Shown here piece by piece: positions 2,108-28,571 of a stretch of 28,571 nt of DNA; the first letter of the stretch is position 1; every line of letters begins with the position of its first letter. The DNA lies in the IMG/VR virus record IMGVR_UViG_3300036781_000820, positions 1 to 28,571 of that record. One strand, given 5' to 3'. This DNA is from a virus. A program made the position numbers and the translations under genes. The notes beneath the pieces were generated by a model that made no database searches, was not told the DNA's origin, and was given only the letters and a program-made list of their open reading frames with translations.

Positions 2108-3052
2108 TTACGCAGGCGAAGCGCCCGCGCCCTGAATCAGGAAGCCCGCGGTGATGCCGGACAGCACGGGCGTGTTGTCGAAGCTGACGCCGTAGATCCA
2201 GCTTTTGGCGCTGTTGTCCCAGTACGGCTGTTCGACCAGCGGATGCCCCTCGATCACGTAGGTGTACGCGAAGCTGGGCTCTTCCACGTTCGGGTCGGTG
2301 CTGACGTTCGTATAGGCCAGGATCACGTCATCGCCCCAGACGTCACCGAAACTTTCGGCGGCATCTGCCACTACGGCTTCGCCAACTTCAACCTTGGCCA
2401 GGCCCCAGAGCCGCGCGAGGATGTCAGTGGTGATCGAGTCCTTGCTGGTGTACTTCGTGCGGTCCAGGATCTTCGCGTTCTCCTGGGCTGCGGAGAACGC
2501 CGAGGCGGACAAGATCGCCGTGTTGGGATACACACCGATGGTCTGACGAACCGCTTCCTTGCCGTCGCGAATGTCACCACTCGGATCGCCAGCGCTGCCA
2601 GACCAGCGGCTGGTGCCGGTCAATGCAACTTTGTGGCCGGCGTCGTAGTTCGATGCATTGCGGGCCAGCTGCGCAGCCTCGTATTCGTGCTCAAGGTTGA
2701 GCGCGCGCAATACGGTGTTCACCGCGCGACTGGCCAGGTTGATGCCCGGCACCTGGGTGGCATCGCGCATCAGCTCACGCGGCACCGGTGCTTCGAGGGC
2801 GCTGGGCACGATGGCGTAAGGCTTGCCCTGGTAGCCGAACTGGATGCGCTTGGTGTTGGTGCCCGGCGCGCGCTTGGAGTTGTAAAGCTTGAACGCACTC
2901 TTGTCGAACTCGGTCACCTTGCCGCCGTACATGGCAACGTCGGCCAACGGGAACAGCGTGCGAGCGACAAGGCCCGCCTGGCGATAGCCGAGAGCGTGGG
3001 TCGACAGAACGGGGTCGACAATGCGCGCCTGGCCGGGAGTCATCTGATTCAT
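2108..3052 (-). CDS. Major capsid protein
   Basis: 314 residues starting MNQMTPGQARIVDPVLSTHALGY. Length, single-domain composition, and a position between a DUF2190-type decoration gene and the connector genes fit a phage major capsid subunit. Segments such as 'ARTLFPLADVAMYGGKVTEFDKSAF' and 'RRWSG..GDPSGDIRDGKEAVRQTIGVYPNTAILS' (approximate pattern) resemble capsid proteins of transposable siphophages, expected to have an HK97 fold. There is no obvious N-terminal scaffold domain; scaffold is instead supplied by the protease gene. An AGGAGA ribosome binding site precedes the ATG at 3052. Very high confidence on role from context, less on subfamily. Confidence 0.88.
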   Translation of the reverse strand: MNQMTPGQARIVDPVLSTHALGYRQAGLVARTLFPLADVAMYGGKVTEFDKSAFKLYNSKRAPGTNTKRIQFGYQGKPYAIVPSALEAPVPRELMRDATQVPGINLASRAVNTVLRALNLEHEYEAAQLARNASNYDAGHKVALTGTSRWSGSAGDPSGDIRDGKEAVRQTIGVYPNTAILSASAFSAAQENAKILDRTKYTSKDSITTDILARLWGLAKVEVGEAVVADAAESFGDVWGDDVILAYTNVSTDPNVEEPSFAYTYVIEGHPLVEQPYWDNSAKSWIYGVSFDNTPVLSGITAGFLIQGAGASPA

Positions 3053-3456: not shown

Positions 3457-3945
3457 TCAGCCGCCGACCGCACGCACAGCGGCGAGCCAGTCAACGGTGG
3501 GGTTCTGCGCCTGATAGGCCTTGGCGCGCGCGTAGACATCAACGCGGCCGGCGTCGACGGTGGTGCCGAGCGGCGCGGCAAACTCGGCCGCACTCGGGGC
3601 GTTCTGGGCGGTAGCCTTCTCGGCGTAGTCGACCTGTTTGGGCAAGCTGTCCAGCAGGTCGCGCAACACGTCCGCGCCGGGTTTCTTGACCTGGGCGCCG
3701 CCCTCGGCGAATTCCAGCGGCTGGTCCACCGGCAGCGCGAGCAACAACTCGATCACCGGCTCTTTGTGGCGCGGCAAAACTTTGCCGTCGGCGACCAGCT
3801 GGTCGGCGAAGGTCACAGCTTCCTCGCGGCGAGCCTTGCCCTCGCGATTGGCAATGGCGCGCTCGCGCGTTTCAAGTTCGTTCTGGCGGGTGGTGAGGGC
3901 CGTTTCGCGCTCGGCGAAGTCGGCCGACGTGTCTTGGTTCGGCAT
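3457..3945 (-). CDS. Nested in-frame scaffold protein (Mu Z-like)
   Basis: Within the protease gene, an ATG at 3945 (codon 216) starts MPNQDTSADFAERETALTTR. On the minus strand GGAG lies six bases before this ATG, a better site than that of the full-length gene. The 162-residue product would be the coiled-coil scaffold without the protease. In Mu and lambda the scaffold is likewise made from an in-frame start inside the protease gene. The internal site is seen directly; that it is used is inference from those families. Confidence 0.7.
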   Translation of the reverse strand: MPNQDTSADFAERETALTTRQNELETRERAIANREGKARREEAVTFADQLVADGKVLPRHKEPVIELLLALPVDQPLEFAEGGAQVKKPGADVLRDLLDSLPKQVDYAEKATAQNAPSAAEFAAPLGTTVDAGRVDVYARAKAYQAQNPTVDWLAAVRAVGG

Positions 3946-4590
3946 ATCGATCTCCAGGGTGGTGGCGCCGGCGTTGTGCTCGGCATAAGCGGGCACGACG
4001 GTGTCGTCAGTGCGCGAAGCAATCTCGTCCAGGCTGCGGATCTGCCACTGTGGGATGATCAAGTCGGCTTTCTCGGCGCCCTGCGTCTCGACGAACCAGT
4101 CGCGAACACGCTGCAACACGTCGACCAGGACATTGCCGATCGCGTAGCCCGGCATCGAGAACTCGACCGCGCCGTCGCCCTCGGCGAACTGCGCGTTCGG
4201 CAGACCCTTTACCGCCGGCGCGGCCGCGCCGAGGAAACCGATGTGCCGCAGGTAGAGCTTGCCGGGCGTCGGGTTTCCGGGCGTATCGCGCAGGTAGATG
4301 GATGCGCTGCGGTTCTTGAAGCGACCGGTGTTGACCAGGTTGGCGAATTGCTCTTCCACCTGGTGCGGCTCGGCGTACAACATGCCGCCGTCGACGCGCA
4401 GCGATTTCGCCCAACCGTAGGCGGGCGCATCGAGCTTCGGGTGACCGACAACCATCGGCGCCTCGGCGAGGGCCGGGTTGTAGCTCGCAGCGATCTCCGC
4501 GATATCCGCGTCGCTGAATTCAATCGAGCGTCCATCCGTACTGACATGGGTGCCAGCACGAAAGATCGCGAGTCCGGGGGCGTTCTTCAT
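3457..4590 (-). CDS. Mu gpI-like prohead protease with C-terminal scaffold domain
   Basis: 377 residues. The first ~140 match the Mu I protease family: 'PMVVGHPKLDAPAYGW' contains the candidate catalytic His50, and 'RFKNRSASIYLR' contains candidate catalytic serines Ser95/Ser97. The segment 'LYLRHIGFLGAAAPAVKGL' follows as expected. Residues ~216-300 form a charged coiled coil (ERETALTTRQNELETRERAI), the scaffold part, and the C-terminus is Ala-rich. The protease matures the prohead after scaffold-directed assembly. An internal ribosome binding site and ATG inside the gene probably make the scaffold alone. The SD before the ATG at 4590 is weak, and a 216-bp gap separates it from the upstream gpG gene. 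Confidence 0.87.
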   Translation of the reverse strand: MKNAPGLAIFRAGTHVSTDGRSIEFSDADIAEIAASYNPALAEAPMVVGHPKLDAPAYGWAKSLRVDGGMLYAEPHQVEEQFANLVNTGRFKNRSASIYLRDTPGNPTPGKLYLRHIGFLGAAAPAVKGLPNAQFAEGDGAVEFSMPGYAIGNVLVDVLQRVRDWFVETQGAEKADLIIPQWQIRSLDEIASRTDDTVVPAYAEHNAGATTLEIDMPNQDTSADFAERETALTTRQNELETRERAIANREGKARREEAVTFADQLVADGKVLPRHKEPVIELLLALPVDQPLEFAEGGAQVKKPGADVLRDLLDSLPKQVDYAEKATAQNAPSAAEFAAPLGTTVDAGRVDVYARAKAYQAQNPTVDWLAAVRAVGG

Positions 4591-6443: not shown

Positions 6444-6576
6444 CGCGCGTCGCCCGCTTGATCAGCGACGCCAGCCAGTCGGCGTGACGCCAATCCCAGG
6501 CGGAAGGCTTCAGCCCCAGGCGTGCCGCTTCGCGACGAAGCCGGCGCAGCGTCACCCGGCGCTGGCGAGCGTTCAT
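6436..6576 (-). CDS. Small basic hypothetical protein (46 aa)
   Basis: A 46-codon frame starting at an ATG that overlaps the portal stop (ATGA) and ending just inside the start of the gpF-like gene. The product begins MNARQRRVTLRRLRREAARL and is strongly basic, with a Trp-rich centre (AWDWRHADWL). The perfect chaining with both neighbours argues that it is real, since otherwise gpF would begin 129 bp after the portal. No family is recognised; a DNA-binding or structural linker role is guesswork. Confidence 0.55.
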   Translation of the reverse strand: MNARQRRVTLRRLRREAARLGLKPSAWDWRHADWLASLIKRATRGG

Positions 6577-8039
6577 GCGCCAGACTCCTGCAGGACGTCA
6601 TACCGCCCGGCCAACGCGGCGGCGGTCAACCCTTCCTGCATGGCCGCGGCATACTGCTCCAGGCTCAGATCCGGCAGCATCTGCAGCAGACCCTCGCGTA
6701 GCGCCTCGAGCGACTCCACCTCACCGGCCAAGGCACGCACCTGGTCAAGCCATGCCCCGGCGGCGGGCGCCACGTTATCGCTGAGCTGGTCGACCATCTG
6801 CGCCGGCGGATCTTGCACGACCGTGCCGGGCTCAGCGAACTGGGCGTCCGGCAGCGCATTCGGATCGACCGGAGGCGTTTCACTGACGGGTTCCCAGCCG
6901 GGTCCATACGTGTCAGTTACGTATTGCAGCGTCGGCTTGTAACCGAGTGTCTTGACCTTGCCGTCGCGATCGGCTCGCTCGGTCAGATCCTCCGGCTCGT
7001 CGGTCACGCGGAACACGCGCGGCACGGCGGCACCAGGGAAGTTCCAGGCGGTGAGCCAGCGCGCGGGGCCCATGTTCCAGCTCTCGCACACCAGGTCCGC
7101 ATCCGCCTTGATGATGTCCGCGCGCACATCGCCCTGCAGGTTGTCGTTACCCAGCTTGCCGGGCGTGCCGCTGGTGCTGGCGGTCTGGCCCAGCACCACC
7201 TTGGCGATCGTGGCGTTCATCGCGTCCTGCAGCGCCTTGTAATCAGCGGTGCCGCTGCGGGCAGCTTCGAGCAATTCTATCGTCATGCCCGCGGGCATGA
7301 TGATGCCGCTGTCCGTCTGGATGGCACGCACCGCCTGCAGCAGCTTGTTCTTCTCGCCATCGCTGGCGGCGCTGTCGTATTTGCCCACGCCGGTGGGCAT
7401 GCCGAACTTCTCCAGGAAGATCAGCCAGAACTTGAGGCCGTTGCGCTTGAACAGCACGGGCCAATACAGCCAATGCGCCAGGCCGAGGCCATAGGGCTCG
7501 TCGTCATTGTCCGCGCCGGTGCTGAAACTCCAGAAGTACGGCGCCTCGGCCGGGATGCCTTCGAGCATCTTGTCGTAGGTCAGCAGCCGTAGGTCCATAT
7601 CCTTGCCGAAGCGGAAGCGGCGGCGATTGCGCACCTTCACCTGCTTGATGCCGATGCGGTTGCCCTGCACCTCATAGAGCTGCTCGGCCACGGCATAACC
7701 GTAGAACACACCGAACAGCATTTTGCGGGTGATGTTGTCCCAGCCGATTTTCTGGATCTGTTCCCGCATGAAATCTGCGGCGGCCTTGTCGATCGCGCGC
7801 TTGCCGCCCGCGTCCACCTGCCACTCGCACGACACCACGGCGAGCTGGCGCTGATCGAAGGCGCTCTTCACTTCCGGGTCGGAATAGACCTGCTCGTAGA
7901 GGGTCAGGTCGCCGCCGCGGTTGCGCAGCACGGAGTCATAGGGCGCCAGCAGCGGGCCGGTGTAGCCGCGGGTGATGTCGATGCCATCGGCGGTGGTGGC
8001 GATCTCGCGATCGAGCTGGGGTTTTGCCTGTTCGCTCAT
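6573..8039 (-). CDS. Portal protein, DUF935 (Mu gp29-like)
   Basis: 488 residues from MSEQAKPQLDREIATTADGI. DUF935 features in order: 'YEQVYSDPEVKSAFDQRQLAV' then 'FMREQIQKIGWDNITRKML' and 'FGVFYGYAVAEQLYE', 'KVRNRRRFRFG', 'NGLKFWLIFLEKFGMPTGVGKY', and the long 'LVLGQTASTSG' type segment (here KVVLGQTAS). The portal is the dodecameric vertex ring through which DNA is packaged. Length is normal for the family (~500). The C-terminal ~80 residues are acidic and helical. It overlaps the large terminase stop at its 5' end. Confidence 0.93.
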   Translation of the reverse strand: MSEQAKPQLDREIATTADGIDITRGYTGPLLAPYDSVLRNRGGDLTLYEQVYSDPEVKSAFDQRQLAVVSCEWQVDAGGKRAIDKAAADFMREQIQKIGWDNITRKMLFGVFYGYAVAEQLYEVQGNRIGIKQVKVRNRRRFRFGKDMDLRLLTYDKMLEGIPAEAPYFWSFSTGADNDDEPYGLGLAHWLYWPVLFKRNGLKFWLIFLEKFGMPTGVGKYDSAASDGEKNKLLQAVRAIQTDSGIIMPAGMTIELLEAARSGTADYKALQDAMNATIAKVVLGQTASTSGTPGKLGNDNLQGDVRADIIKADADLVCESWNMGPARWLTAWNFPGAAVPRVFRVTDEPEDLTERADRDGKVKTLGYKPTLQYVTDTYGPGWEPVSETPPVDPNALPDAQFAEPGTVVQDPPAQMVDQLSDNVAPAAGAWLDQVRALAGEVESLEALREGLLQMLPDLSLEQYAAAMQEGLTAAALAGRYDVLQESGA

Positions 8040-9481
8040 GACGCGAAGCCTCCGAAATCATTGCCGCCTGGCACGGTGCCGAAGCCATCCGAGCCAAAGC
8101 CGCTACCGAGTGTGGCCACGACGCTGGCGCGCTGACCGATGGATTGATAATCGATCTGCGCGGCCGGCGAGCTGGCGGCGTGCACCGCCAGCGCCAGCCC
8201 CCAGAAGCGGTCGGCGTGGCCGTCCGGCGTACGCTCGGCGGTGAAGCGGATGTTGCCGGCGGCGGTGGTTTGCTTGGTGACCGAGCGCAGATCGGCGCGA
8301 ACCTGTGCGTCATAGGGAATGCGCAGCGTGCGGTCCTGCATGCGCCCGCGCACCGGGTAGGCCAGCGCCTCCTTGGTTTTCGGCGTGAAGGTCACCGCTT
8401 CAATGCGATGTTCCCCGAATTTGTCCTGGGCATCGTCTGCCCAGCCGATGCCCAAGCCGGTGGCGTCGATGCATACCCGGCTGCAGCGGGCAAACCACGG
8501 GTACAGGATCTTCTCCTGATCCGACTTGCGCATTTTTTGCATCGAAATGACGGCGCGCGTGTAGAGCACGTCGCCCAGGCGCTCCATGATCCAGAGTACG
8601 GTGAGGTCTTTCTTGCGACCGATGTCGACGCCGGCATACAGCTCGCGGCCTTCGATCAGTTCCCAGTTCGCGTTCTGGGCGTACTCACAGCTGGCGATCA
8701 GATCGTATTCCAGGAAGGCGACGTCGTCGTCGGCCGCCCGGCACATGTACTCCTGCTGGAACGATTCCTCGTCGGCGCAACCGGCGCGCACGAAGTCGAA
8801 GTACTCCGCCTCGGCCATCGCCTGGCGTTCGTCGTCGGTCGGCAGCTTCTGCTGCAGCTTGTAGAGCAAGCCCTGGTCGAGCGCGTCCTGCAACGTGACG
8901 GTGTGCAGGCTGATCTTTTTCGGGTTGCCGTTTTCCTTGATCTCGCGGATCAGCGCGTTGAAAAAGTTGTGGCTGCCGCGGTGCGTGCTGAACGCCTCCA
9001 GGCTGCCGCCCCAGGTGATGCCGGGATAGGCGATCGACCACAGCTTGCGCGGATCGGGGTGCAACGCGAATTCGTCCAGCACGCGGCCACCGCGCTTGCC
9101 GGCCTGCGCGTCCGGGTTGCTGGACATGCTGTGGATGCGCCGCTTGTTGGCGAACTCCAGTACCTGGGCCGTCTCGCGGCTTTTGTTGTCGATGATCTGC
9201 TCGCCGAGATCTTTGGCGGCCAGCTGCACCACCCCGGTGAACAGCTTGCAATCTTCGATGAACAACCGCGCCTGCAAGTCGTCGCGGCTGGATACCCATT
9301 GATCCCACATCGCGCCGCGCAGCCCGGTGCGCCGTACACAGGCATAGGCGGCGGTCCAGCTCCAACCGATCTGGCGCGACTTCTCCCCGAGCTTCAGGCG
9401 GCTGGTGTCGTTGATCCAGCACGACTGGAACGGCAGGAAGATGGCCTTCGGATCAGCGGGGATGCAGCGGGCGTTACCCAT
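8036..9481 (-). CDS. Terminase large subunit (Mu gp28-like)
   Basis: 481 residues from MGNARCIPADPKAIFLPFQS. ATPase part: a deviant Walker A 'GEKSRQIGWSW' at ~32-42 and Walker B-like 'GGRVLDEFALH'. Nuclease part: 'YAGVDIGRKKDLTVLWIME' and 'VCIDATGLGIGWADDA', with Asp residues fitting the RNase H-like metal site. It pumps DNA into the prohead and cuts it. The frame is open far upstream, but the ATG at 9481 shares ATGA with the small terminase stop and opens the family-like N-terminus, so the longer version was rejected. The C-terminus is Gly/Ser rich. Confidence 0.92.
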   Translation of the reverse strand: MGNARCIPADPKAIFLPFQSCWINDTSRLKLGEKSRQIGWSWTAAYACVRRTGLRGAMWDQWVSSRDDLQARLFIEDCKLFTGVVQLAAKDLGEQIIDNKSRETAQVLEFANKRRIHSMSSNPDAQAGKRGGRVLDEFALHPDPRKLWSIAYPGITWGGSLEAFSTHRGSHNFFNALIREIKENGNPKKISLHTVTLQDALDQGLLYKLQQKLPTDDERQAMAEAEYFDFVRAGCADEESFQQEYMCRAADDDVAFLEYDLIASCEYAQNANWELIEGRELYAGVDIGRKKDLTVLWIMERLGDVLYTRAVISMQKMRKSDQEKILYPWFARCSRVCIDATGLGIGWADDAQDKFGEHRIEAVTFTPKTKEALAYPVRGRMQDRTLRIPYDAQVRADLRSVTKQTTAAGNIRFTAERTPDGHADRFWGLALAVHAASSPAAQIDYQSIGQRASVVATLGSGFGSDGFGTVPGGNDFGGFAS

Positions 9482-10026
9482 CACACGATGCCCATCAGGC
9501 GCGCGTCGATCGCCTTCATCGTTTCCGGCGACACGCCGGCATCGCTGGCGATTTGCTGGATCTCGGCCGTGGCGGCTTCGACCTTCTTGCGCAGTTCCAC
9601 CGCCCACTTGTTGCGGGTCACGCTCGCGCGGGTGAGCGTGGCGATATTCTTCGCGGCCTTGCCCAGCACCTCGATGCGCTTGGCCGGATTCGGTTCCTCC
9701 TCGGCTTCCTGCAGGGCGAGCATGCAATCGAAGATTTCGGTCTGCACCATGCTGATGATCGCGTTGCTGCGATCGTCTGCGTCGTCGGGCGCGGCTTCGG
9801 TGATCATGCGCGCGGCTTCCGTGCTCGCCCTCACCGCCGACAGACGACGGGACAGCTTGGCGCCATACCGTTGCACGCTGCTCTTGCCCCCGGCATCGAC
9901 GCCGAACTCGTCACGGATGCGCTCAGCCAGCCAGTCGTAACCGGCGAAGCCGGCCTTGATCAACAGGCGATCGATCTGGGCGCGGATCTCCGCCGGCTGC
10001 TGTTCGATCTTGGATCGACGCGGCAT
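9481..10026 (-). CDS. Terminase small subunit, DUF3486 (Mu gp27-like)
   Basis: 181 residues from MPRRSKIEQQPAEIRAQIDR. DUF3486 hallmarks are the N-terminal 'LP...R..ID.LL...GF..YD.L...I...FG' helix-turn-helix segment (here AEIRAQIDRLLIKAGFAGYD) and 'SSVQRYGAKLSRRL'. The C-terminal half is helical (EEEPNPAKRIEVLGKAAKNIA) and likely oligomerises. It should recognise phage DNA for headful packaging. The open frame upstream of 10026 overlaps a winged-helix gene and was excluded. Confidence 0.88.
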   Translation of the reverse strand: MPRRSKIEQQPAEIRAQIDRLLIKAGFAGYDWLAERIRDEFGVDAGGKSSVQRYGAKLSRRLSAVRASTEAARMITEAAPDDADDRSNAIISMVQTEIFDCMLALQEAEEEPNPAKRIEVLGKAAKNIATLTRASVTRNKWAVELRKKVEAATAEIQQIASDAGVSPETMKAIDARLMGIV

Positions 10027-13430: not shown

Positions 13431-13829
13431 TCAGAGCACGTGCAGCGCTCGATTGATGTCGGCGATCGCCTCGTTGTGATAGCGCCACTCGGCGGCGCAT
13501 GCGCGTTGCACGTGTTGAAACAAGCCGTAGGAAAATAGAGCCCAGGCCCCAGCGACCAACGACAGCGACAAACTCACCGCGCTTCCGAAAACCAGGTGGC
13601 CTTCCCACACCAGCGCAAGGAAGGCGGCCATGCCAGCGCCGAACCACCACAAATAGGGATTGGCCCAGCGGCGTCGTTGGGCGGCACTGCGCAAGGCAAT
13701 GTGCTCTTGCTGGCGCGCCACGAGATCGTTCCAGCGCTCTTGACGATCAATATTGCTTTGCCGGTCGCCACGATTACGGATATCGCCGGCGGCCACCTGG
13801 CCGACCGGACCATAAAAATTCTGTGCCAT
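13431..13829 (-). CDS. Two-helix membrane protein with N-terminal NFYGPVGQVAAGDI motif
   Basis: 132 residues. The N-terminus (MAQNFYGPVGQVAAGDIRNR) is a Gly/Val-rich motif also present at the C-terminus of the adjacent repressor. A basic linker (QERWNDLVARQQEHIALRSA) follows. Then come two transmembrane segments (~60-78, around WWFGAGMAAFLALVW, and ~83-105, around SLSLSLVAGAWALFSYGLF) and a C-terminal helix. The ATG at 13829 shares ATGA with the repressor stop and has a G-rich SD upstream. No known family is recognised. The layout suggests a membrane effector or sensor tethered to a short interaction motif; function is unproven. Confidence 0.7.
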   Translation of the reverse strand: MAQNFYGPVGQVAAGDIRNRGDRQSNIDRQERWNDLVARQQEHIALRSAAQRRRWANPYLWWFGAGMAAFLALVWEGHLVFGSAVSLSLSLVAGAWALFSYGLFQHVQRACAAEWRYHNEAIADINRALHVL

Positions 13830-13900
13830 CACCGCCCCCTGCGGTCCTTGTTGATGATGTTTCCGGCGGCAACCTGGTCAACCGTATGGTTGAAATTCTG
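13786..13900. repeat. Pair of 38-nt imperfect direct repeats encoding the shared motif
   Basis: Segments 13786-13823 and 13863-13900 are each 38 nt, start with CCGGCGGC and end with AAATTCTG, and match at 29 of 38 positions by eye. They encode the motif at the start of the membrane protein and at the end of the repressor, in the same strand and phase. Duplication of the motif-coding DNA, or strong shared selection, would explain the match. Confidence 0.75.
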
Positions 13901-14389
13901 CTGCACCTTCGGACCTTTCGCGGGTTTAGGCGGCGAGTGCGCGTGAGGTCCGTTGACTGCCAGCGACGCAGCAGCGGCAAGGATGGCGGGTTTCATCGCA
14001 GCATCCGCAGCTCGGTAGTGCTTGAGCAGTTGCTGCTCATCATCCCGCAACGACTCCATGCTGGCCTGAAAAATGGCGGCCTGCACCTGGGACTGTTGCT
14101 TGGTACTCAGGCCGGCTATGGCGATGGCAGCGGCCGTCGCATCGCGCACTAACCGCAGACGTCGCTCCAGTTCGATTTCGCCAGGCGCCAGTCGCTCACC
14201 GGTGACGATGTAACGCACGTCCACGCCGTGATCAGCGATCGCTTTCAGATAAGCGGCATCGGGAGCGCGCGCGTCCTGCTCGTAATTGATCTGCGCACGC
14301 TTCTGCACGCCACCAATGGCAGCGAAGTCCGTTTGGCTGAGACCAAGGCTCCCCCGAGCCTCTCTCAGCCGTTCTCCCAAAGTGGTCAT
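13829..14389 (-). CDS. XRE-family phage repressor with C-terminal motif extension
   Basis: 186 residues from MTTLGERLREARGSLGLSQT. Residues ~4-62 are a lambda-repressor-like helix-turn-helix ('L..R...LGLSQTDFA...GV.KRAQINYEQ.ARAPDAAYL'). Then comes 'GVDVRYIVTGER', usual in phage XRE repressors that contact pyocin-type operators, and a long helical segment. There is no LexA-like Ser/Lys peptidase domain. Residues ~165-186 carry NFNHTVDQVAAGNIINK, echoing the next gene's N-terminus. It faces the early operon across a ~90-bp switch region and is the likely lysogeny repressor. The start at 14389 has only a weak SD. Confidence 0.85.
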   Translation of the reverse strand: MTTLGERLREARGSLGLSQTDFAAIGGVQKRAQINYEQDARAPDAAYLKAIADHGVDVRYIVTGERLAPGEIELERRLRLVRDATAAAIAIAGLSTKQQSQVQAAIFQASMESLRDDEQQLLKHYRAADAAMKPAILAAAASLAVNGPHAHSPPKPAKGPKVQQNFNHTVDQVAAGNIINKDRRGR

Positions 14390-14409
14390 CCGTGCACCAT
14401 TAAAGGGTG

Positions 14410-14439
14410 TTGACAGGTGTTCAAATGTACACCTATGAT
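14410..14439 (+). promoter_or_regulatory. Predicted early promoter
   Basis: TTGACA (14410-14415), an 18-base spacer, then TATGAT (14434-14439): a near-consensus sigma-70 promoter pointing into the Ner-like gene and the early operon, ~40 bp upstream of its ATG. Matching on sight only; no other comparable promoter was found in the early block. Confidence 0.78.
14415..14434. promoter_or_regulatory. Candidate repressor operator inside the early promoter
   Basis: AGGTGT (14415-14420) and ACACCT (14429-14434) form a perfect six-base inverted repeat with an eight-base spacer, filling the space between the -35 and -10 boxes. A further GGTGTT copy sits at 14407-14412, in direct repeat with 14416-14421. 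Binding here by the XRE repressor or the Ner-like protein would block early transcription. Confidence 0.65.
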
Positions 14440-14479
14440 TAGTCATGTGGTTAGAACGAAAGGAACAGGAGCATATCGC

Positions 14480-14692
14480 ATGAAAGACTTGCATGCCCCG
14501 AGCAGAAACCTGATGCAGCAGGTCCGCGCCGGGTTCATCACTCAGGGCACTACCTTCACGGACTGGTGCCGCCGACACGAGATCCGGCACACCAGCGCGC
14601 GACAGGCCATCTACGGCAGCTGGGACGGGCCAAAGGCCAAAACGCTGCGCGCCCGCATCGTCCGCGCTGCCGGCGTCGGAGCAGCCGCATGA
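14480..14692 (+). CDS. Ner-like early regulator (small HTH protein)
   Basis: 70 residues from MKDLHAPSRNLMQQVRAGFI. The pattern 'F...G.TFTDWCRRHEI.HTSARQAIYGSWDG.KA..LR.RI..AAG' is the small DNA-binding protein found first in the early operon of many transposable phages, functionally like Ner/Cro. It would repress the repressor and early promoters after induction. AGGAG lies eight bases before the ATG at 14480. An in-frame ATG at 14425 lies inside the promoter/operator, upstream of any likely transcript start, and was rejected. Confidence 0.8.
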   Translation: MKDLHAPSRNLMQQVRAGFITQGTTFTDWCRRHEIRHTSARQAIYGSWDGPKAKTLRARIVRAAGVGAAA

Positions 14693-16345: not shown

Positions 16346-18142
16346 ATGCCCGTCGACTCTCGCATCGAGGCCGCCGCCGCCGAACTGCTGGCGTCGCCGC
16401 ATGGACGCAAGGGCGCGATCGTGACTTCCCTGGCAACGCAGATGGATATCAGCGTGCCGACCGCTTATCGCCGGCTCAACAAAGTGCTGGCTACCTTGCG
16501 CCCACGCAAGCGCCGCAGCGACGCCGGTCAGTGCGTGGTGAGCCGCGAGGAAGCGCTGCACATCGCCGCGCTCACCGAGGAAACTCGCCGCCTCACCGGC
16601 ACCGGCACGCTGCCGCTGGAAGAGGTCGTGGGCATGGCCCGCGCCAATGGCTTGATCGATGCCGGCCACGTCGACACGACCACCGGCGAGTTCACGCCGG
16701 TCAGCCTGTCCACGGTGCGCCGCGCGCTGCGCCAGCACCACGTGCACGCCTCGCAGCTCAATGCGCCGACGCCGGCCGCATCGCTATCCAGCCCTCATCC
16801 GAACTGGTGCTGGCAGATCGACGCATCGGTGAGCCGTCAGTTTTACCTGGCCGACGACGGCGCGCATGTGATGCCACAGCGCGAGTTCTACCGCGGCAAG
16901 CCGCAGAACTTCGAGCGCATCGCCGACCGTCGCCTGTGGCGCTACGTGGTCACCGATCACGCCTCGGGTGCCTTCAGCCTGTTCTACGTGCAGGGCGCCG
17001 AGAGCGCGGTCAATCTGCTGGCGTCGCTGATGCACGCGATGATCGATCACCCCGGCGGCACGATGCACGGCGTGCCGCACATCCTGATGACCGACCCCGG
17101 CAGCGCGATGACCGCGGCGACCACGCGCAACTTCTGCGCGGCGCTGAACATCCGCCTGCAGATCAACGCCGTGGGCAATGCCCGCGCCAAGGGCCAGGTG
17201 GAAAACGGCAACTACCTGGTCGAGCGCCACTTCGAGGCGGGCCTGAAATTGTGCGCGCCTGTAACCAGCCTGGAAGAGATCAACACGAAGGCTCAGCAAT
17301 GGTCCTACGCGTACCAGGCCACCCGCACGCACAGCCGTACCGGCATGACCCGCCGCGACGGGTGGTTGCGCATCACGCCCGAGCACCTGCACGTGGCGCC
17401 CGATATCGACGTGTTGCGCGCGCTGGCCAACAGCGAGCCGAAGCCGTGCACGGTGCGCAATTGCCGCATCAAGTTCCGCAGCGCGGAGTGGGACGTCTCC
17501 GGCGTCGATGGGCTGATCAACGGCGAGAAGGTCGACGTAATCCGCAATCCGTTCGACGGCGACGCCAGCGTACGCATCGTGCGCGCCGGCGACGACGGCC
17601 AACTGGTGCATCTGCTGGCGCCGCGCATCGAGACGGGCGCGTTCGGCTTCCGGATCGGCTCTGCCGAGATCGGCACGTCGTACCACGCGCCAAGGGCGAC
17701 ACCGGCCGATGCGGCGCGCGCCGAGATCGAGCGCCTGGCGATGGACGTGCGCACCGACGCCGAGGCGATGGTGGCGCGCAAGGCCAAGCGACTGGCGTTC
17801 AAGGGCACCATCGACCCGCACAAGCATCTGTTGGATGCCGCAGTGACCCAGCACCTTCCGCGTGCCGGCACGCCGGCCACGGTGACCGCACCGACGACGA
17901 TGGCGGCACCCGCGCGCGTCGAGCCGATGGCGATTCGGCCGGAGTATCCACCTCTTAACCACGTCGAAGCTGCGCGCGCGGTGAAGCCGCTGGTGGAGCG
18001 TGCAGGCGGCACCTGGTCGGCCGAGCTGTACCAGCGCACGGCGCAGCGCTGGCCCGATGGCTTGCCGCTTGACCAGGTCGAAGCCTGGGCGGCCGAGCTG
18101 GCCCAGGGCATGCGACTGCGCGTTGTTGGCGGTGCGGCATGA
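16346..18142 (+). CDS. Mu-type transposase A (DDE recombinase)
   Basis: 598 residues. N-terminal helix-turn-helix ('IVTSLATQMDISVPTAYRRLNKVL') binds ends or enhancer. The catalytic core shows Asp159 (WCWQIDAS), Asp250 (LMTDPGSAM) and Glu286 (AKGQVENGNY), a DD35E spacing as in Mu/Tn7/IS3-type integrases. A Mu-type C-terminal beta-barrel follows (~390-460), then a helical tail that should contact the B protein. It cuts phage ends and joins them to target DNA in integration and replicative transposition. Slightly shorter than Mu A (663), mainly at the N-terminus. Confidence 0.95.
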   Translation: MPVDSRIEAAAAELLASPHGRKGAIVTSLATQMDISVPTAYRRLNKVLATLRPRKRRSDAGQCVVSREEALHIAALTEETRRLTGTGTLPLEEVVGMARANGLIDAGHVDTTTGEFTPVSLSTVRRALRQHHVHASQLNAPTPAASLSSPHPNWCWQIDASVSRQFYLADDGAHVMPQREFYRGKPQNFERIADRRLWRYVVTDHASGAFSLFYVQGAESAVNLLASLMHAMIDHPGGTMHGVPHILMTDPGSAMTAATTRNFCAALNIRLQINAVGNARAKGQVENGNYLVERHFEAGLKLCAPVTSLEEINTKAQQWSYAYQATRTHSRTGMTRRDGWLRITPEHLHVAPDIDVLRALANSEPKPCTVRNCRIKFRSAEWDVSGVDGLINGEKVDVIRNPFDGDASVRIVRAGDDGQLVHLLAPRIETGAFGFRIGSAEIGTSYHAPRATPADAARAEIERLAMDVRTDAEAMVARKAKRLAFKGTIDPHKHLLDAAVTQHLPRAGTPATVTAPTTMAAPARVEPMAIRPEYPPLNHVEAARAVKPLVERAGGTWSAELYQRTAQRWPDGLPLDQVEAWAAELAQGMRLRVVGGAA

Positions 18143-18381
18143 GCACTCGCATGTCCGCACTAACCATCATCGATCGTGACCTGGCTCGCAAGGAAGCCAC
18201 TGGCAATAAGTTCGCCAAGGAGATCCGCCAGGCACGTGACGCCGTGGCCGAGCTATTCGAAGCACTCGGCAAAATGCCGACGATGGAAGTCCGTATCGGG
18301 TGCACGTGTCGCGAATGCGAAAGCAAACGCCGGCTCGCCGCCGCGTACACCCGCTTCAAACGCGCCGGCGGTGCCGCATGA
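18139..18381 (+). CDS. Small Cys-motif protein between MuA and MuB
   Basis: 80 residues. Overlaps the transposase stop and the MuB start (ATGA both sides). An N-terminal helix (LARKEATGNKFAKEIRQARD) is followed by 'IGCTCRECESKRRLAAAY', a CxCxxC cluster that may bind zinc. No family is recognised. Being wedged between A and B suggests a role tied to transposition, but this is only position. Confidence 0.65.
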   Translation: MSTRMSALTIIDRDLARKEATGNKFAKEIRQARDAVAELFEALGKMPTMEVRIGCTCRECESKRRLAAAYTRFKRAGGAA

Positions 18382-19535
18382 CGCTGCACCTCAAGTCCGC
18401 CCTGGTCAGCGCCGGCATCAAGCAGGGCGCTGTCGCCGCTGCGGCCGGTATCTCGCGCCCGGCCTTCAACGCTTTCATCAACCGCGGCCATCTGCCGCTG
18501 GGCACCGATCGCGCGGCGGTCGAGCGCTCCATCACTGCGTTCGTACACCGGCACGGCGGAAGCACCGTCGGCCTTTTCGAAGTGGCGGCACCGTGCGCTA
18601 ACACGGTGCCGCCGGTTTCCCCGCCAGACCCGGCAAAAGATCAGGAGGAGATGTCCATGTTACTGCGTAAGCAAACCCTCACGCCGGCCGCGCGCCGGCA
18701 CTTCAGCCTGCAGCGTGATCCATTCGCGGACCCGACCACCGCCGAGGACGTGTTCCTGTCGCCCGATATCCGCTACGTGCGGGAAGCGATGTACCAGGTG
18801 GCCCGCCACGGCGGCTTCATGGCAGCGATCGGCGAGAGCGGCGCGGGCAAATCCACGCTGCGCGAGGAGCTGGTCGACCGGTTGAACCGCGAAGAGCAGG
18901 CGGTGATCGTCGTGGAGCCCTACGTGCTGGCGATGGAGAGCAACGACAGCATCGGCAAAACCCTCAAGGCACAGCACATCGCCGAGGCGATCATGTCTGC
19001 GGTGTCGCCGCTGGCCAAGGCCAAAAGCAGCCCACAGGCGCGCTTCGAGCAGTTGCACGCGGCGTTGCGCGACAGCGCCCGCAGCGGCCACAGCCATGTG
19101 TTGGTGATCGAGGAGGCACATAGCCTGCCGCTTGCCACGCTGAAGCACCTGAAGCGCTTCCGCGAGTTGAAGGATGGCCTGCGCCCGTTGCTATCGGTCA
19201 TCCTGATCGGCCAGTCGGAGCTGGCGGTCAAGCTCAGCGAACACAACCCGGAAGTGCGCGAGGTCGTGCAACGCATCGAGATCGTCACGCTGCCCGCGCT
19301 CGACAAAGACCTGGACGCCTACCTCACGCACCGCTTCAAGCGCTCCGGTACGCCGATCGACCAGGTGCTGGCCAAGGGCGCCATCGATGCCTTGCGCACC
19401 AAGCTCACGCCCACGCGCGCGGGAGGCACCTTGTTGTACCCGCTGGCCGTCCACAACGCGCTCACTGCCGCGATGAACCGCGCTGCCGATCTCGGCGTGC
19501 CGCTGGTCAACGCTGACGTTATTGGAGGCGTGTGA
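18378..19535 (+). CDS. MuB-like transposition ATPase
   Basis: 385 residues from MTLHLKSALVSAGIKQGAVA. An N-terminal HTH (~10-45, 'VAAAAGISRPAFNAFINRGHLP') is followed by a Pro-rich linker. The AAA+ core has Walker A at ~152-160 (GESGAGKST) and Walker B 'HVLVIEEAH'; the segment 'LLSVILIGQSEL' fits sensor 1. B proteins form filaments on target DNA, stimulate the transposase and give target immunity. Longer than Mu B (312), because of the linker and an insertion before the core. An upstream open frame was not used because the ATG at 18378 overlaps the preceding stop. Confidence 0.93.
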   Translation: MTLHLKSALVSAGIKQGAVAAAAGISRPAFNAFINRGHLPLGTDRAAVERSITAFVHRHGGSTVGLFEVAAPCANTVPPVSPPDPAKDQEEMSMLLRKQTLTPAARRHFSLQRDPFADPTTAEDVFLSPDIRYVREAMYQVARHGGFMAAIGESGAGKSTLREELVDRLNREEQAVIVVEPYVLAMESNDSIGKTLKAQHIAEAIMSAVSPLAKAKSSPQARFEQLHAALRDSARSGHSHVLVIEEAHSLPLATLKHLKRFRELKDGLRPLLSVILIGQSELAVKLSEHNPEVREVVQRIEIVTLPALDKDLDAYLTHRFKRSGTPIDQVLAKGAIDALRTKLTPTRAGGTLLYPLAVHNALTAAMNRAADLGVPLVNADVIGGV

Positions 19536-24548: not shown

Positions 24549-25135
24549 TTCGCTTCACTTGCCCGTGCTGCGGCTCCGACTTCCCTTGGGAGGCCGGCTT
24601 AGTTGAGGCCGATGCAAAGCGCCTCGGCGCTGTCCTTGGCGACATGGAGCCACCTCTGGCCCGCGCCGCCATGTCATATCTGCGCCTGTTCAAGCCACCA
24701 AAGACGGCGCTGCGTCTGCCGCGTGCCACGAAGCTTCTGCAGGAATTGGCCATCCTGGTCGGCGAAGGCACGGTATGCCGCGACGAGCGATCTGGCGTCC
24801 GCCGACCGGCGCCGGCATCGGCTTGGGTCGCCGGCATCGAGCAGATGCTGCAGCAAGTCGACCGCCTTACGCTGCCACTGACCGCACATGGCTATCTGCG
24901 TCAGGTAGTTTTCGGCATCGCCGATGCCGCCGACGCCGCCGGCGAGAAGGTGCGCGAGAAGGATCTACGCGAGGGTCGCCGGCCAGCCGGGCCGAGTCCT
25001 TCGCGGCAGGTCGAGGACAAGCTGACCAACGAGCTGGCGTACCTGGACCAAATGCGCCGCTACGGGAAAATCAACCAGATCGAACACGACACGCTCGCCG
25101 CCACCGCGCGGGAGCGATTCGGGGGCTCACCATGA
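24545..25135 (+). CDS. Zinc-ribbon-like early protein (TTG start)
   Basis: 196 residues if read from the TTG at 24545, which overlaps the preceding stop (TTGA) like all its neighbours. N-terminal 'IRFTCPCCGSDFPWE' is half of a zinc ribbon; the rest is helical, with 'LRLFKPPKTALRLPRATKLLQEL' and a basic C-terminal third (KVREKDLREGRRPAGPS). This resembles proteins found just before Mor in transposable phages. Upstream open frame overlaps two genes and was excluded. Function unknown. Confidence 0.7.
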   Translation: MIRFTCPCCGSDFPWEAGLVEADAKRLGAVLGDMEPPLARAAMSYLRLFKPPKTALRLPRATKLLQELAILVGEGTVCRDERSGVRRPAPASAWVAGIEQMLQQVDRLTLPLTAHGYLRQVVFGIADAADAAGEKVREKDLREGRRPAGPSPSRQVEDKLTNELAYLDQMRRYGKINQIEHDTLAATARERFGGSP

Positions 25136-25479
25136 GCACGCGGATGGAAGATCTGCGCAACGAGTTGCTGTCCGACGTCGCCGCGCATGCGGCCGTCGTG
25201 CTGCAGGACCACGGCGTCGCTGACGACGTGGCCGACCAGGCTGGCGCCGCGATCGCCGACCATCTGGCCAGCCACTGGGGCGGACAGGTGCTGACCGTGC
25301 CGAAGGACTACGCTTTCCGCCTCGCGCTCCGCGATCAGATGATCCTAGACGAGTTCAACGGCTCCAACCTGCAGGAGCTGGCCAAGCGCTACGATATGAC
25401 CGAGCGCGGCGTCCGCAAGCTCCTCGCCCGCGCGCACAAGCGCCAGCGCGACCTGTACCAGGGCAAACTCTTCGACTGA
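25132..25479 (+). CDS. mor: Mor-family transcription activator
   Basis: 115 residues. The C-terminal half 'DQMILDEFNGSNLQELAKRYDMTERGVRKLLARAHKRQ' is the Mor/C helix-turn-helix, and the N-terminal half is the dimerisation region (LSDVAAHAAVVLQDHGV ... AIADHLASHWGG). Mor activates the middle promoter after early transcription and thereby the late programme; here it is the last gene of the early operon, while its targets lie on the opposite strand, ~12 kb away. No further phage gene follows. Symbol assigned by family. Confidence 0.85.
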   Translation: MSTRMEDLRNELLSDVAAHAAVVLQDHGVADDVADQAGAAIADHLASHWGGQVLTVPKDYAFRLALRDQMILDEFNGSNLQELAKRYDMTERGVRKLLARAHKRQRDLYQGKLFD

Positions 25480-25625
25480 TCGGCGCCTTTTTCTGTTGCA
25501 TACTCTGCAACAACTTTGCACAGCCCATCCCGCCCAGCCCCAATTCAACCCGCTTCTTCCCGCGCTTTTCTCAGTCTTCCTTGTGGATATATCTCAGCTG
25601 GGAACAGCAAGAGCAACAGCACCCT
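25480..25625. other. Non-coding junction between phage and plasmid-like DNA
   Basis: 146 bp with no gene. It holds a perfect seven-base inverted repeat, then a pyrimidine-rich stretch (~25520-25575), and then the relaxase ATG. In this phage layout the phage end should fall here or slightly inside mor. The exact end cannot be read because the other end is outside the window. Confidence 0.7.
25494..25525. repeat. Inverted repeat: candidate oriT or phage terminus
   Basis: TGTTGCA (25494-25500), TACTC, TGCAACA (25506-25512), then ACTTTGCACAGCC. An inverted repeat followed by a short T/G/C motif upstream of a MobA/MobL gene is the usual shape of a MobQ oriT. The CA at 25511-25512 would also suit a Mu-type phage terminus. 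The sequence alone does not decide. Confidence 0.4.
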
Positions 25626-27140
25626 ATGGCGATTTTTCACCTTTCCGCGCAGATCATCGGCCGCACCGCTGGACGCAGTTCTGTAGCGGCGGCAGCCTAT
25701 CGGCACGGCGAGCGATTGGTCGATGAGCGCACCGGGTTGGTTCACGACTACTCCCGTAAAGCCGGGGTGAGTGAGGTTGTCGTTCTTGCCCCAGATAATG
25801 CTCCGGAGTGGGTTCACACTCCGGAGTTGTGGCAGCGCGTGGAAGCGAGCGAAACGCGCAAGAACAGCCAAACTGCACGCGAGATCAACATTGCTCTACC
25901 CGTGGAGTTGAACCCGGAGCAACGGCGCGGGTTGATGCTGGGATATTGCCGGGAACAGTTTGTAAGCCGAGGCATGGTGGCCGATGTGAGTTTTCACGAC
26001 GACAACTCGGAAAATCCGCACGCCCACATCATGCTCACGACCCGGAGCATTGGGCTGGACGGGTTTGGCCCAAAAGTGCGCGAGTGGAACGCGCCGGAAG
26101 CGTTGGGGCTGTGGCGCGAGCAATGGCAGGCACATGCAAACACGGCGCTAGAAGCGGCGGGGCTGGATGTGCGGATTGATCACCGGAGGCTTGAAGCACA
26201 ACAGGCCGACGCGCTGGAACGAGGTGAAGAACTGGTAGCGATGAAACTCAACAGGGGGGCGCAGGTTCATGAAGGACCCAAGCCGAGCGAGCGCGTCCAG
26301 GTCGAGAACCGGACCGCAGCGCAGGAACTGGCCGAAGCACAGGCCAAGGCGGCGCTGTGGGAGCAGGCAAACCCGGAGGTTGTGGCGGCCATGAAGGCAC
26401 GCGCAGAACAAGAGCGGGTTCGGCGGGAAGAAGCAGAAAAAGACAGGGCGTGGAGCGGTTTGGCGGCGTCCGCAGTCGCGGACACCAAGAGCCGGGCCGA
26501 GGCGCTGGGGAAGTGGGTGGCCGTGCTGGACGGAGAGCGAGCCGAGGCGGTGGCACGCGAGACAATGGCGCGGTCAGATGCGAGCAGCGCACACGCTCGC
26601 CGGATGCTGGCAGAACCGAACTACGACCGGGCCAAGCAAGAGCGGCGGGCATGGGAGAAGGCTCACCCGTGGCGTGTGCGGCTGGATGAGTGGGGTTTGA
26701 AAAGCGGCAGGCGGGCGGAACTGATCGAGACGCACGACAAGGCACGGGCCGAGTTGAAAGCGGCCAGCGCGGAGAAAAAACAGACCTACGCCGCACACGA
26801 TGAGCAGGCCAAAACGATGCGCGAGGCCATGCGGAAGGTGGAACAAGCCACCAAGCAGGCCGAGGCAGCCCGCAAGGCTTACGAGCGTGCACGGGAGCGA
26901 CTGGCCGACATTGAGGCGGGCAGGCTCTCCCGGCAGCACGAGGAAGCCACTCAACGGGCATGGGAACAAGCGAAGGAACAGGCCAGCACGGAACGGCGGC
27001 AGACGTTGGAGCGGAGGCCCCAAGGCCCAGCCGCACCCATGCCACGTTTACGCGATGAGGTGGCCACCACGCCACGCCTCCGGACAGTGCCACGGCTCCG
27101 GCCACCCGGCTACGACGGTGGGCGCGGGATGGGCCGGTAA
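25626..27140 (+). CDS. MobA/MobL family relaxase
   Basis: 504 residues from MAIFHLSAQIIGRTAGRSSV. Relaxase motifs: Tyr25 in 'RSSVAAAAYRHGERL' (likely nicking tyrosine) and the HUH-type motif 'FHDDNSENPHAHIM' with His124, His132 and His134. Residues ~220-480 are a long charged coiled coil with many Ala/Glu/Arg, no primase domain. It would nick oriT and pilot plasmid DNA during mobilisation by a helper conjugation system. The in-frame GTG at 25581 upstream is ignored because family members start MAIFH. SD is weak. Codon use differs from the phage genes. Confidence 0.92.
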   Translation: MAIFHLSAQIIGRTAGRSSVAAAAYRHGERLVDERTGLVHDYSRKAGVSEVVVLAPDNAPEWVHTPELWQRVEASETRKNSQTAREINIALPVELNPEQRRGLMLGYCREQFVSRGMVADVSFHDDNSENPHAHIMLTTRSIGLDGFGPKVREWNAPEALGLWREQWQAHANTALEAAGLDVRIDHRRLEAQQADALERGEELVAMKLNRGAQVHEGPKPSERVQVENRTAAQELAEAQAKAALWEQANPEVVAAMKARAEQERVRREEAEKDRAWSGLAASAVADTKSRAEALGKWVAVLDGERAEAVARETMARSDASSAHARRMLAEPNYDRAKQERRAWEKAHPWRVRLDEWGLKSGRRAELIETHDKARAELKAASAEKKQTYAAHDEQAKTMREAMRKVEQATKQAEAARKAYERARERLADIEAGRLSRQHEEATQRAWEQAKEQASTERRQTLERRPQGPAAPMPRLRDEVATTPRLRTVPRLRPPGYDGGRGMGR

Positions 27141-27178
27141 CACTTCCAGAGGCCCACAGAGCGTTGTGGCGCAGGATT

Positions 27179-27208
27179 TTGAGTGTTGAGTGCCTTGCAC
27201 GCTATGCT
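27179..27208 (+). promoter_or_regulatory. Candidate promoter of the lipoprotein gene
   Basis: TTGAGT (27179-27184), 18 bases, TATGCT (27203-27208), ~32 bases before the lipoprotein ATG. Reasonable sigma-70 match by eye, in a 100-bp gap after the relaxase stop. Confidence 0.5.
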
Positions 27209-27240
27209 CACCCCACCAAGGACGAACAGGGGAAACAAGC

Positions 27241-27702
27241 ATGAAAAAACTCAACCTTTTGCTCGGTGCGTTTGCAGTGAGCATCATGGCCGGCTGCACC
27301 AGCATCGCAGCGAAAGAGACACCCATCGTGCCGGACATGGCTCATGCCAATTTCGGCCCCTATCCGACAGACTACGAGGGGCTCATCAAAACTTGGGCCG
27401 AGTTGAAACTCAAAGATCCGGAATCGGCCCGTTACGTGCAGTTTTCTAAGCCGCGAAAGGAGTGGGCGGTGGCGGATAGCCAGCCCATCTACGGATGGTC
27501 GGTTTGCGCCACGATCAACGCGAAGAACAGTTATGGCGGCTACTCAGGCGCACAGGTTTATTGGTTCTTTTTTCGGGACGGCAAGATTTTCCGTGGTCGG
27601 AACATTGAAGAAGATGCTGGCATTCCGGGTGTCATTAGCATTCCGGGCAACCGAATTTCCGTGGGACACGATGTGAACTGTGATGATGGGGATGCCCAAT
27701 AG
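27241..27702 (+). CDS. Small plasmid-encoded lipoprotein
   Basis: 153 residues with a lipoprotein signal: MKKLNLLLGAFAVSIMAGC, lipid-attachment Cys19. The mature part has 'PYPTDYEGLIKTWAELKLKDPESARYVQFSKPRKEWAV' then 'IYGWSVCATINAKNSYGGYSGAQVYWFFFRDGKI', a pattern seen in uncharacterised small lipoproteins (approximate quote). AGGGGAAA lies upstream of the ATG at 27241. Lipoproteins next to mobilisation genes sometimes act in entry exclusion, but nothing here proves it. Confidence 0.8.
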   Translation: MKKLNLLLGAFAVSIMAGCTSIAAKETPIVPDMAHANFGPYPTDYEGLIKTWAELKLKDPESARYVQFSKPRKEWAVADSQPIYGWSVCATINAKNSYGGYSGAQVYWFFFRDGKIFRGRNIEEDAGIPGVISIPGNRISVGHDVNCDDGDAQ

Positions 27703-27779
27703 GGAAACCCCCTTGCATCCCCCAAGACAAAAGAGAAAGAAGAAAAGTCCTCACGAGGTTGCGTAGTGCCTCAATGTCA

Positions 27780-27860
27780 TTCCCGTTAGACGGGAAAGCG
27801 TTTCCTACAAAACGGGAATTTTTTCCCGTTAAACAGGAAAGCAAAAGCGCAGAACGGGAA
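27780..27860. repeat. Iteron-like ACGGGAA repeats, candidate plasmid origin
   Basis: The 7-mer ACGGGAA or its complement occurs five times in 81 bp: 27780-27786 (complement), 27790-27796, 27812-27818, 27823-27829 (complement), 27854-27860. The first two and the middle two form perfect inverted repeats (three- and four-base loops). A degenerate sixth copy is near 27832. Clustered repeats just upstream of a replication gene are typical of an origin or Rep-binding region. Confidence 0.65.
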
Positions 27861-27920
27861 AAGCGGAAAGAGCAGAGGCGCGGCCGATGGGCCGCGCTGG
27901 GTCCCTTATGGCGTGCATGG

Positions 27921-27980
27921 TTTCCGGGTTGTCCCGGAAATCATTCTTTTTTCCGGGTGGGGCTTGACGAAAGCCGGAAA
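27921..27980 (+). promoter_or_regulatory. Attenuator-like leader of the replication gene
   Basis: Segments 1 TTTCCGGG (27921-27928), 2 CCCGGAAA (27933-27940), 3 TTTCCGGG (27950-27957) and 4 CCGGAAA (27974-27980) allow alternative hairpins 1:2, 2:3 or 3:4. The 1:2 hairpin is followed by a T-rich run ending at 27952. Segment 4 lies ~40 bases before the repL ATG. This is the layout of a transcriptional or translational attenuator; use is inferred. Confidence 0.55.
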
Positions 27981-28019
27981 CCTGCGCGGGATGGAGTAAG
28001 CCCCTTTGAGACTGATCCC

Positions 28020-28571
28020 ATGTTGTTTACCAACCCCTTTTTGGACACCCTTGGTGTTGAAACGAAGCGCAAGACCGACCGGCGAGCCGAGCAGACGTTC
28101 GGTGAACTCGATGCGCAGGCTGTCGAGGTTTCCGCTGTCCACTTTGTCGATAAAACCACGTTCGTAAAAGTCATGTCCCGAGCCATGCGCGAAGGCTTCG
28201 GGCTGGGCCTGAAAGCTCAGCGCATGTGGTGGATCGTGCTGGATGTAATCGGCAAGGAAGCCATAGGGCAGGATGAGTTCTACCTCACGCACCAACCCAG
28301 TTTTCAGCTCGGCGACGATAAGGCGGGGCAGGTCGAAATCACGAAAACGACCTTTTACGATGGACTGGCGGAGTTGCGGGCGGCGGGTTTCATCGCCAAA
28401 CAACCGCACCGCTCCGGCTGGTATTGGATCAATCCGGCGATGGTTTGGAACGGCGACCGGGTTCGGTTCATCAATGAGTATCGGGTCAAGCACGGAGGCG
28501 CCGGGCCGAAGGTGCTTTATCCACGGGCACGGCGGCGAGAAACTGCCCAGCCCAAGGCCAGAGCCGTGTAG
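28020..28571 (+). CDS. RepL-like plasmid replication protein
   Basis: 183 residues from MLFTNPFLDTLGVETKRKTD. The C-terminal half is a winged helix with 'ITKTTFYDGLAELRAAGFIAKQPHRSGWYWINPAMVWNGDRVRFINEYR' (approximate quote), the RepL-type signature in which an 'INP...NGDR' strand follows the recognition helix. It probably binds the upstream repeats to start or control replication. The frame is open 87 codons further, but those codons lie in the repeat/hairpin region, so the ATG at 28020 is preferred. The stop is the last base triplet of the window. SD is weak, in line with leader control. Confidence 0.75.
   Translation: MLFTNPFLDTLGVETKRKTDRRAEQTFGELDAQAVEVSAVHFVDKTTFVKVMSRAMREGFGLGLKAQRMWWIVLDVIGKEAIGQDEFYLTHQPSFQLGDDKAGQVEITKTTFYDGLAELRAAGFIAKQPHRSGWYWINPAMVWNGDRVRFINEYRVKHGGAGPKVLYPRARRRETAQPKARAV

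Follow-up and report, generated by a model that had tools for sequence, protein, structure and literature searches.

In the DNA analysed here, an entire IMG/VR record (IMGVR_UViG_3300036781_000820; 28,571 bp, classed linear; hereafter the window), a relaxase gene of the kind carried by mobilisable plasmids closely follows the early genes of a transposable phage, which raises the question of whether both belong to one viral genome or to a phage and the plasmid that it has entered. Approximately 25.6 kb of the record belong to a transposable phage of the B3/phiSHP3 type, and the 2,965 bp after it are plasmid-type DNA. As judged from the sequence, the most probable reading, to which we assign a probability of roughly 80%, is that a small mobilisable plasmid of the MobQ/RepL kind carries an inserted prophage of this type 19 bp upstream of mobQ.

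The phage part (1-25606) is incomplete, as revealed by collinear DNA matches to two related IMG/VR records of 37,950 bp (IMGVR_UViG_3300024996_000120) and 36,191 bp (IMGVR_UViG_3300012942_000088). Base 1 of the window corresponds to base 24,993 of the former, and thus about 12-13 kb of the phage, comprising tail-side genes, and the other phage end are absent from the window. The left edge falls inside the major tail gene, where the encoded peptide matches B3 ORF43, the major tail protein. From the middle of the phage to this edge, the minus strand encodes the large terminase (8036-9727; PF17289 and PF03237; DNA about 77-78% identical to B3 and Lsp-JY19), the Mu-type portal protein (6573-8039; PF06074, E = 4.7e-102), a gpF-like protein, the head maturation protease (3457-4590; phrog_976, E = 8.9e-119), the major head protein (2108-3052; phrog_1005, E = 2e-91), and neck genes. 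Also on the minus strand, an HTH repressor-like gene (13829-14527, start approximate; PF01381, E = 2.4e-5) diverges from the early operon, which runs on the plus strand through transposase A (16346-18142; DDE, MuA-like; rve domain, E = 1.1e-7, slightly under the Pfam cut-off), the transposition ATPase B (18372-19535; AAA_22, E = 9.8e-18), and small early genes to mor (25132-25479; PF08765, E = 1.1e-29), the gene for the late transcription activator. B3-type phages are characterized by a DDE transposase A and an ATPase B in the early operon and by an outermost mor that reads toward the phage end, with the repressor and the late genes on the opposite side, and the window has this arrangement throughout. 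Its transposase A is 91% identical to that of the 36,191-bp relative, 60% to that of phiSHP3, and 37% to that of B3, while its Mor is 97%, 61%, and 54% identical to the Mor proteins of three related phages, the first two being the 37,950-bp and 36,191-bp records. As a side observation, Leptolyngbya phage Lsp-JY19 (PP438411.1) is named a cyanophage, yet its genes follow the B3-type order and 2.8 kb of its DNA are 78% identical to the window; our guess is that it may come from a proteobacterium in a non-axenic culture.

An earlier note on this DNA pointed to early genes that stop at mor, to a gap of 146 bp before the relaxase, and to a shift in codon use. The first of these is true here but is no anomaly, because mor is terminal in B3-type phages and the late genes lie past the repressor: mor is the outermost gene of both B3 and phiSHP3, where its coding sequence reaches base 124 and base 116 from the phage end, respectively, and in the B3 map it is the first gene, with the late genes beyond the repressor in both phages. 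The gap, from the mor stop at 25479 to the start of the MobA_MobL/MobQ relaxase gene at 25626, is as described, and the shift is real, GC at third codon positions dropping from 0.77-0.89 across ten phage genes to 0.64-0.71 across the three genes that follow the joint.

Within the 146-bp interval, the joint is off-centre, with 127 bp of phage end on the mor side and 19 bp of target DNA leading up to the relaxase ATG. The phage terminal region (25480-25606) ends 127 bp beyond the mor stop, placing the joint at 25606/25607; read inward, the terminus is TGTTCCCAGC, with subterminal repeats TGAGATATATCC at +11 and TGAGAAAAGCGCGG at +34, and it matches the ends of the 36,191-bp relative, phiSHP3, and B3. 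The 36,191-bp relative stops exactly at ...GGGAACA (inward TGTTCCCGCC-TGAGATATTC) and starts exactly at TGTAGCGCGGCGCGATAAATC, the first 15 bases of which are common to the other end of B3; given that both edges are phage-type ends, this record represents an entire phage, from terminus to terminus. Beside the TGTTCCCAGC-TGAGATATATCC of the window, the inward reads are TGTGCAGGGG-TGAGATATATC in phiSHP3 and TGAGAGAGAG-TGAGAAATACC in B3. The window and the 36,191-bp relative agree in 16 of the first 18 terminal bases and share TGAGA repeats at +11 and +34, and phiSHP3 has its repeats at +11 and +33, the second being TGCGA. This agreement with the relatives in sequence, in repeat spacing, and in distance from mor indicates that the phage ends at 25606 and that target DNA begins at 25607. 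The one end present in the window thus has a B3-type terminus, which starts with TG (here TGT) and carries subterminal repeats. A candidate end at 25520 (TTGCA, inward TGCAAAG) was dropped because the relatives put the end at 25606. When the terminus pattern was searched in genome_contigs and viral_contigs, only the 36,191-bp relative also had Mor, and the remaining matches look like chance.

That phages of this type enter plasmids is illustrated by a complete B3-like prophage of 39,459 bp, identified here in the Pseudomonas aeruginosa plasmid pFYJ1051 (CP151894.1, 62000-110000; L059, 3555-43013), which served as a positive control. Termini of the same kinds bound it, and each is flanked by GCTTGC, a 6-bp duplication. 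In related Pseudomonas plasmids, the rejoined site occurs intact: 33 records match at least 80% of its length, and the best six are identical to it across all 300 bp. Together, the prophage, the duplication, and the empty site indicate that natural insertion of B3-type phages into plasmids does occur and generates a 6-bp duplication. From the position of the terminus and this 6-bp duplication, the plus-strand interval 25607-25625 of the window would be target DNA from the phage end to the relaxase ATG, and by analogy 25607-25611 or 25607-25612 (GCAAG or GCAAGA) is predicted to be one copy of the target duplication. A search with the pattern of the predicted other joint, GCAAG plus the right phage end, gave a single match, in L058, which has no similarity to mor, transposase, mob, or rep and was rejected as chance.

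The exact position of the joint also bears on the main rival explanation, an assembly chimera at the phage end, according to which the sample contained phage copies at numerous sites and one abundant plasmid contig was linked to the phage end during assembly. The record is a metagenome record without reads, its composition shifts at the joint, and phage ends are branch points in the assembly graph because every insertion has another flank, all of which would suit such an artefact. Nevertheless, a random chimera would rarely fall at the phage terminus to the base, and a graph path leading from the terminus into a plasmid normally needs some reads across it; the base-exact position in particular makes chimerism unlikely.

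By its gene content, the DNA from 25607 onward is plasmid-like, with a MobQ relaxase, a RepL-like protein, and repeats upstream of rep. The MobQ-family relaxase (504 aa; 25626-27140, plus strand) scores 247 bits with NCBIfam NF041496 MobQ, for which the curated cut-off is 200 bits, and matches PF03389 (E = 5.2e-59) and the solved nicking enzyme 4ht4 (E = 2.2e-27). Its relaxase domain carries the motifs AYR near residue 24 and HAH at 132, and across the first 218 residues it is up to 55% identical to plasmid MobQ proteins. At 28020-28571 on the plus strand (start at 28020 or upstream) lies a gene for a RepL-like plasmid replication protein, an assignment made by weak homology, as tblastn to small-plasmid RepL proteins gave 27-35% identity with E values down to 4e-14 and no Pfam family matched. 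A relaxase and, by this weak homology, a replication protein are thus both present, as in mobilisable plasmids. A repeat search revealed iteron-like repeats upstream of rep (27780-27865; TTCCCGTTAGACGGGAAAGC and relatives), which are a possible replication origin. Between relaxase and rep, a lipoprotein-like gene (27241-27702, plus strand), with an N-terminal lipobox-like ...SIMAGC read from the translation, has relatives on small plasmids and in phrog_2320 (E = 3.8e-25), a PHROG of unknown function; this lipoprotein family is common to phages and plasmids and, as a guess, may be exclusion-related. A scan of 25607-28571 for a nic site, allowing at most two mismatches to one MobQ-type consensus, gave no match, and oriT may lie beyond the other end of the phage. 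The flank gave no megablast-level DNA match, and blastn returned only short matches inside the relaxase; no close plasmid relative was found, nor, for lack of a DNA match, the host and the unoccupied site. At the protein level, the flank resembles plasmid NZ_CP146346.1 of Pseudomonas sp. ML2-2023-3, which has RepL and MobQ as its main genes, although the proteins are only about 30-32% identical to those of the window and the plasmid carries no prophage. That genes of this kind can constitute a plasmid is evident from a RepL/MobQ plasmid with a unit of 2.97 kb, which was deposited in dimeric form.

It is also conceivable, though less so than chimerism, that the flank is part of a chromosomally integrated element, either mobilisable or derived from a plasmid, and that the prophage lies inside it. 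The record is open-ended, its final base being that of the rep stop codon, and both edges of the 37,950-bp relative coincide exactly with stop codons, one of them that of mor, illustrating that IMG/VR records can be trimmed at gene ends; the parent contig of the window may therefore go on. IMGVR_UViG_3300024996_000120 in fact starts exactly at the mor stop codon and has lost its phage termini, presumably through gene-based provirus trimming. What makes a chromosomal location improbable is that a rep with iteron-like repeats beside MobQ is the usual content of small plasmids and that the 2,965-bp flank contains neither an integrase nor a chromosomal gene.

Mu-like virions carry host DNA at their ends. 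The flank could accordingly be host DNA packaged by a headful mechanism as in Mu and sequenced from virions rather than from a lysogen, and the record does come from a virus collection. Flanks of this origin vary between particles, however, so that one 3-kb flank would assemble only if one insertion dominates, and even then a plasmid insertion in the producing cell would be implied; this origin is accordingly quite improbable.

The close spacing of relaxase and rep to mor and their shared direction might suggest that they are phage genes, making the record a genuine phage-plasmid or a phage equipped with a transfer gene of its own, but this is scarcely credible, as both lie outside the phage terminus, B3, phiSHP3, and the IMG/VR relatives have neither at this place, neither matches any PHROG, and searches of viral_contigs for relaxase and RepL relatives and of genome_contigs for RepL relatives returned none. 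Linkage of the relaxase to many unrelated phages, proposed in the earlier note as the sign of a phage gene, likewise did not appear: B3, phiSHP3, and the two closest IMG/VR phages, including the 37,950-bp record with its nearly identical Mor, have no relaxase at the mor end. For the same reason of position, the window is not a P1-like phage-plasmid, in which the replication genes lie within the phage genome, given that rep and mob here lie outside the phage. The suggestion in that note that a Mu-like phage had inserted in a mobilisable plasmid is thus supported, with a joint that is base-exact at the expected terminus and a flank of plasmid type.

For the insertion of the prophage in the plasmid, a straightforward course of events can be proposed. 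At a staggered cut in the plasmid, the two phage ends would have been attached by transposase A with ATPase B, and a target duplication of 5-6 bp would have arisen, with 25607-25611/12 as one of its copies. The mor-side phage end would thereby have come to abut plasmid DNA at 25607, with 19 bp separating it from the relaxase ATG, and the plasmid would be circular, with a second joint at the other phage end. Provided that oriT and mobQ remain functional, the prophage could then be carried by a helper conjugative system.

Because the prophage cuts mobQ off from all upstream DNA, the gene may no longer have its promoter and may rely on transcription that reads through from the early operon. The phage early operon and mobQ point the same way, and a simple scan revealed no sigma-70-like promoter and no terminator-like site between mor and mobQ, so read-through would be possible. 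A further step, in which mobQ is under the control of the phage early operon and phage induction also triggers mobilisation of the hybrid plasmid, providing a phage-controlled conjugative second route of spread, is highly speculative and probably incorrect.

The window offers a base-level view of a transposable phage in an environmental small mobilisable plasmid. Phage-plasmid hybrids can bring phages into hosts closed to receptor-based infection and let phages reshape plasmids, and the terminus sequence is now usable to look for more cases. There is also a warning here, in that virus catalogues can count plasmid genes as viral where a record runs past the phage end.

Two deposited sequences considered in this context were rejected. 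NZ_CP124623.1 is labelled a P. aeruginosa plasmid, but it is linear, has phage-type ends, and follows the B3-like gene order, starting with mor at base 124; by its layout it seems to be a phage genome under a wrong label rather than a plasmid with an insertion. E. coli NZ_CP132021.1 (40.5 kb, circular) has a Mu-like phage and metabolic genes, with no rep among its annotated genes, and for this reason was not counted as a precedent.

Among known systems, Stenotrophomonas phage phiSHP3 and Pseudomonas phage B3 share with the window the gene order with mor outermost and the same end architecture, but they are isolated phages without a plasmid flank. The pFYJ1051 prophage is, as in the window, a B3-type phage inside a plasmid and joined at exact termini, whereas its carrier is a 117-kb IncU plasmid of P. 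aeruginosa, known as a complete sequence. A natural precedent in a small plasmid is pBH6::Phage BH9 of P. aeruginosa (GenBank CP029714), in which a Mu-like prophage sits within a plasmid of 3.65 kb and the 5-bp duplication is GGATG, the whole element being about 41 kb and the phage ends starting with TGT (Galetti et al. 2019; PMC6435834). Both cases involve a Mu-like prophage transposed into a small plasmid and TGT phage ends; both joints and circularity were shown for pBH6::Phage BH9, while the window contains one joint. Moreover, Phage BH9 resembles JBD26/PaMx73 and pBH6 carries a resistance gene, as opposed to a B3/phiSHP3-type phage and a MobQ/RepL target here. RP4::D3112 and related hybrid plasmids, laboratory classics, carry transposable phage between species (PMC3564109); they resemble the window in having a transposable phage on a transferable plasmid but are laboratory constructs on a self-transmissible plasmid. 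With pBH6::Phage BH9 and RP4::D3112 as precedents, phage transposition into plasmids is already known, and the window represents a further case of this phenomenon, adding a different phage type and a MobQ/RepL plasmid to the few natural cases described.
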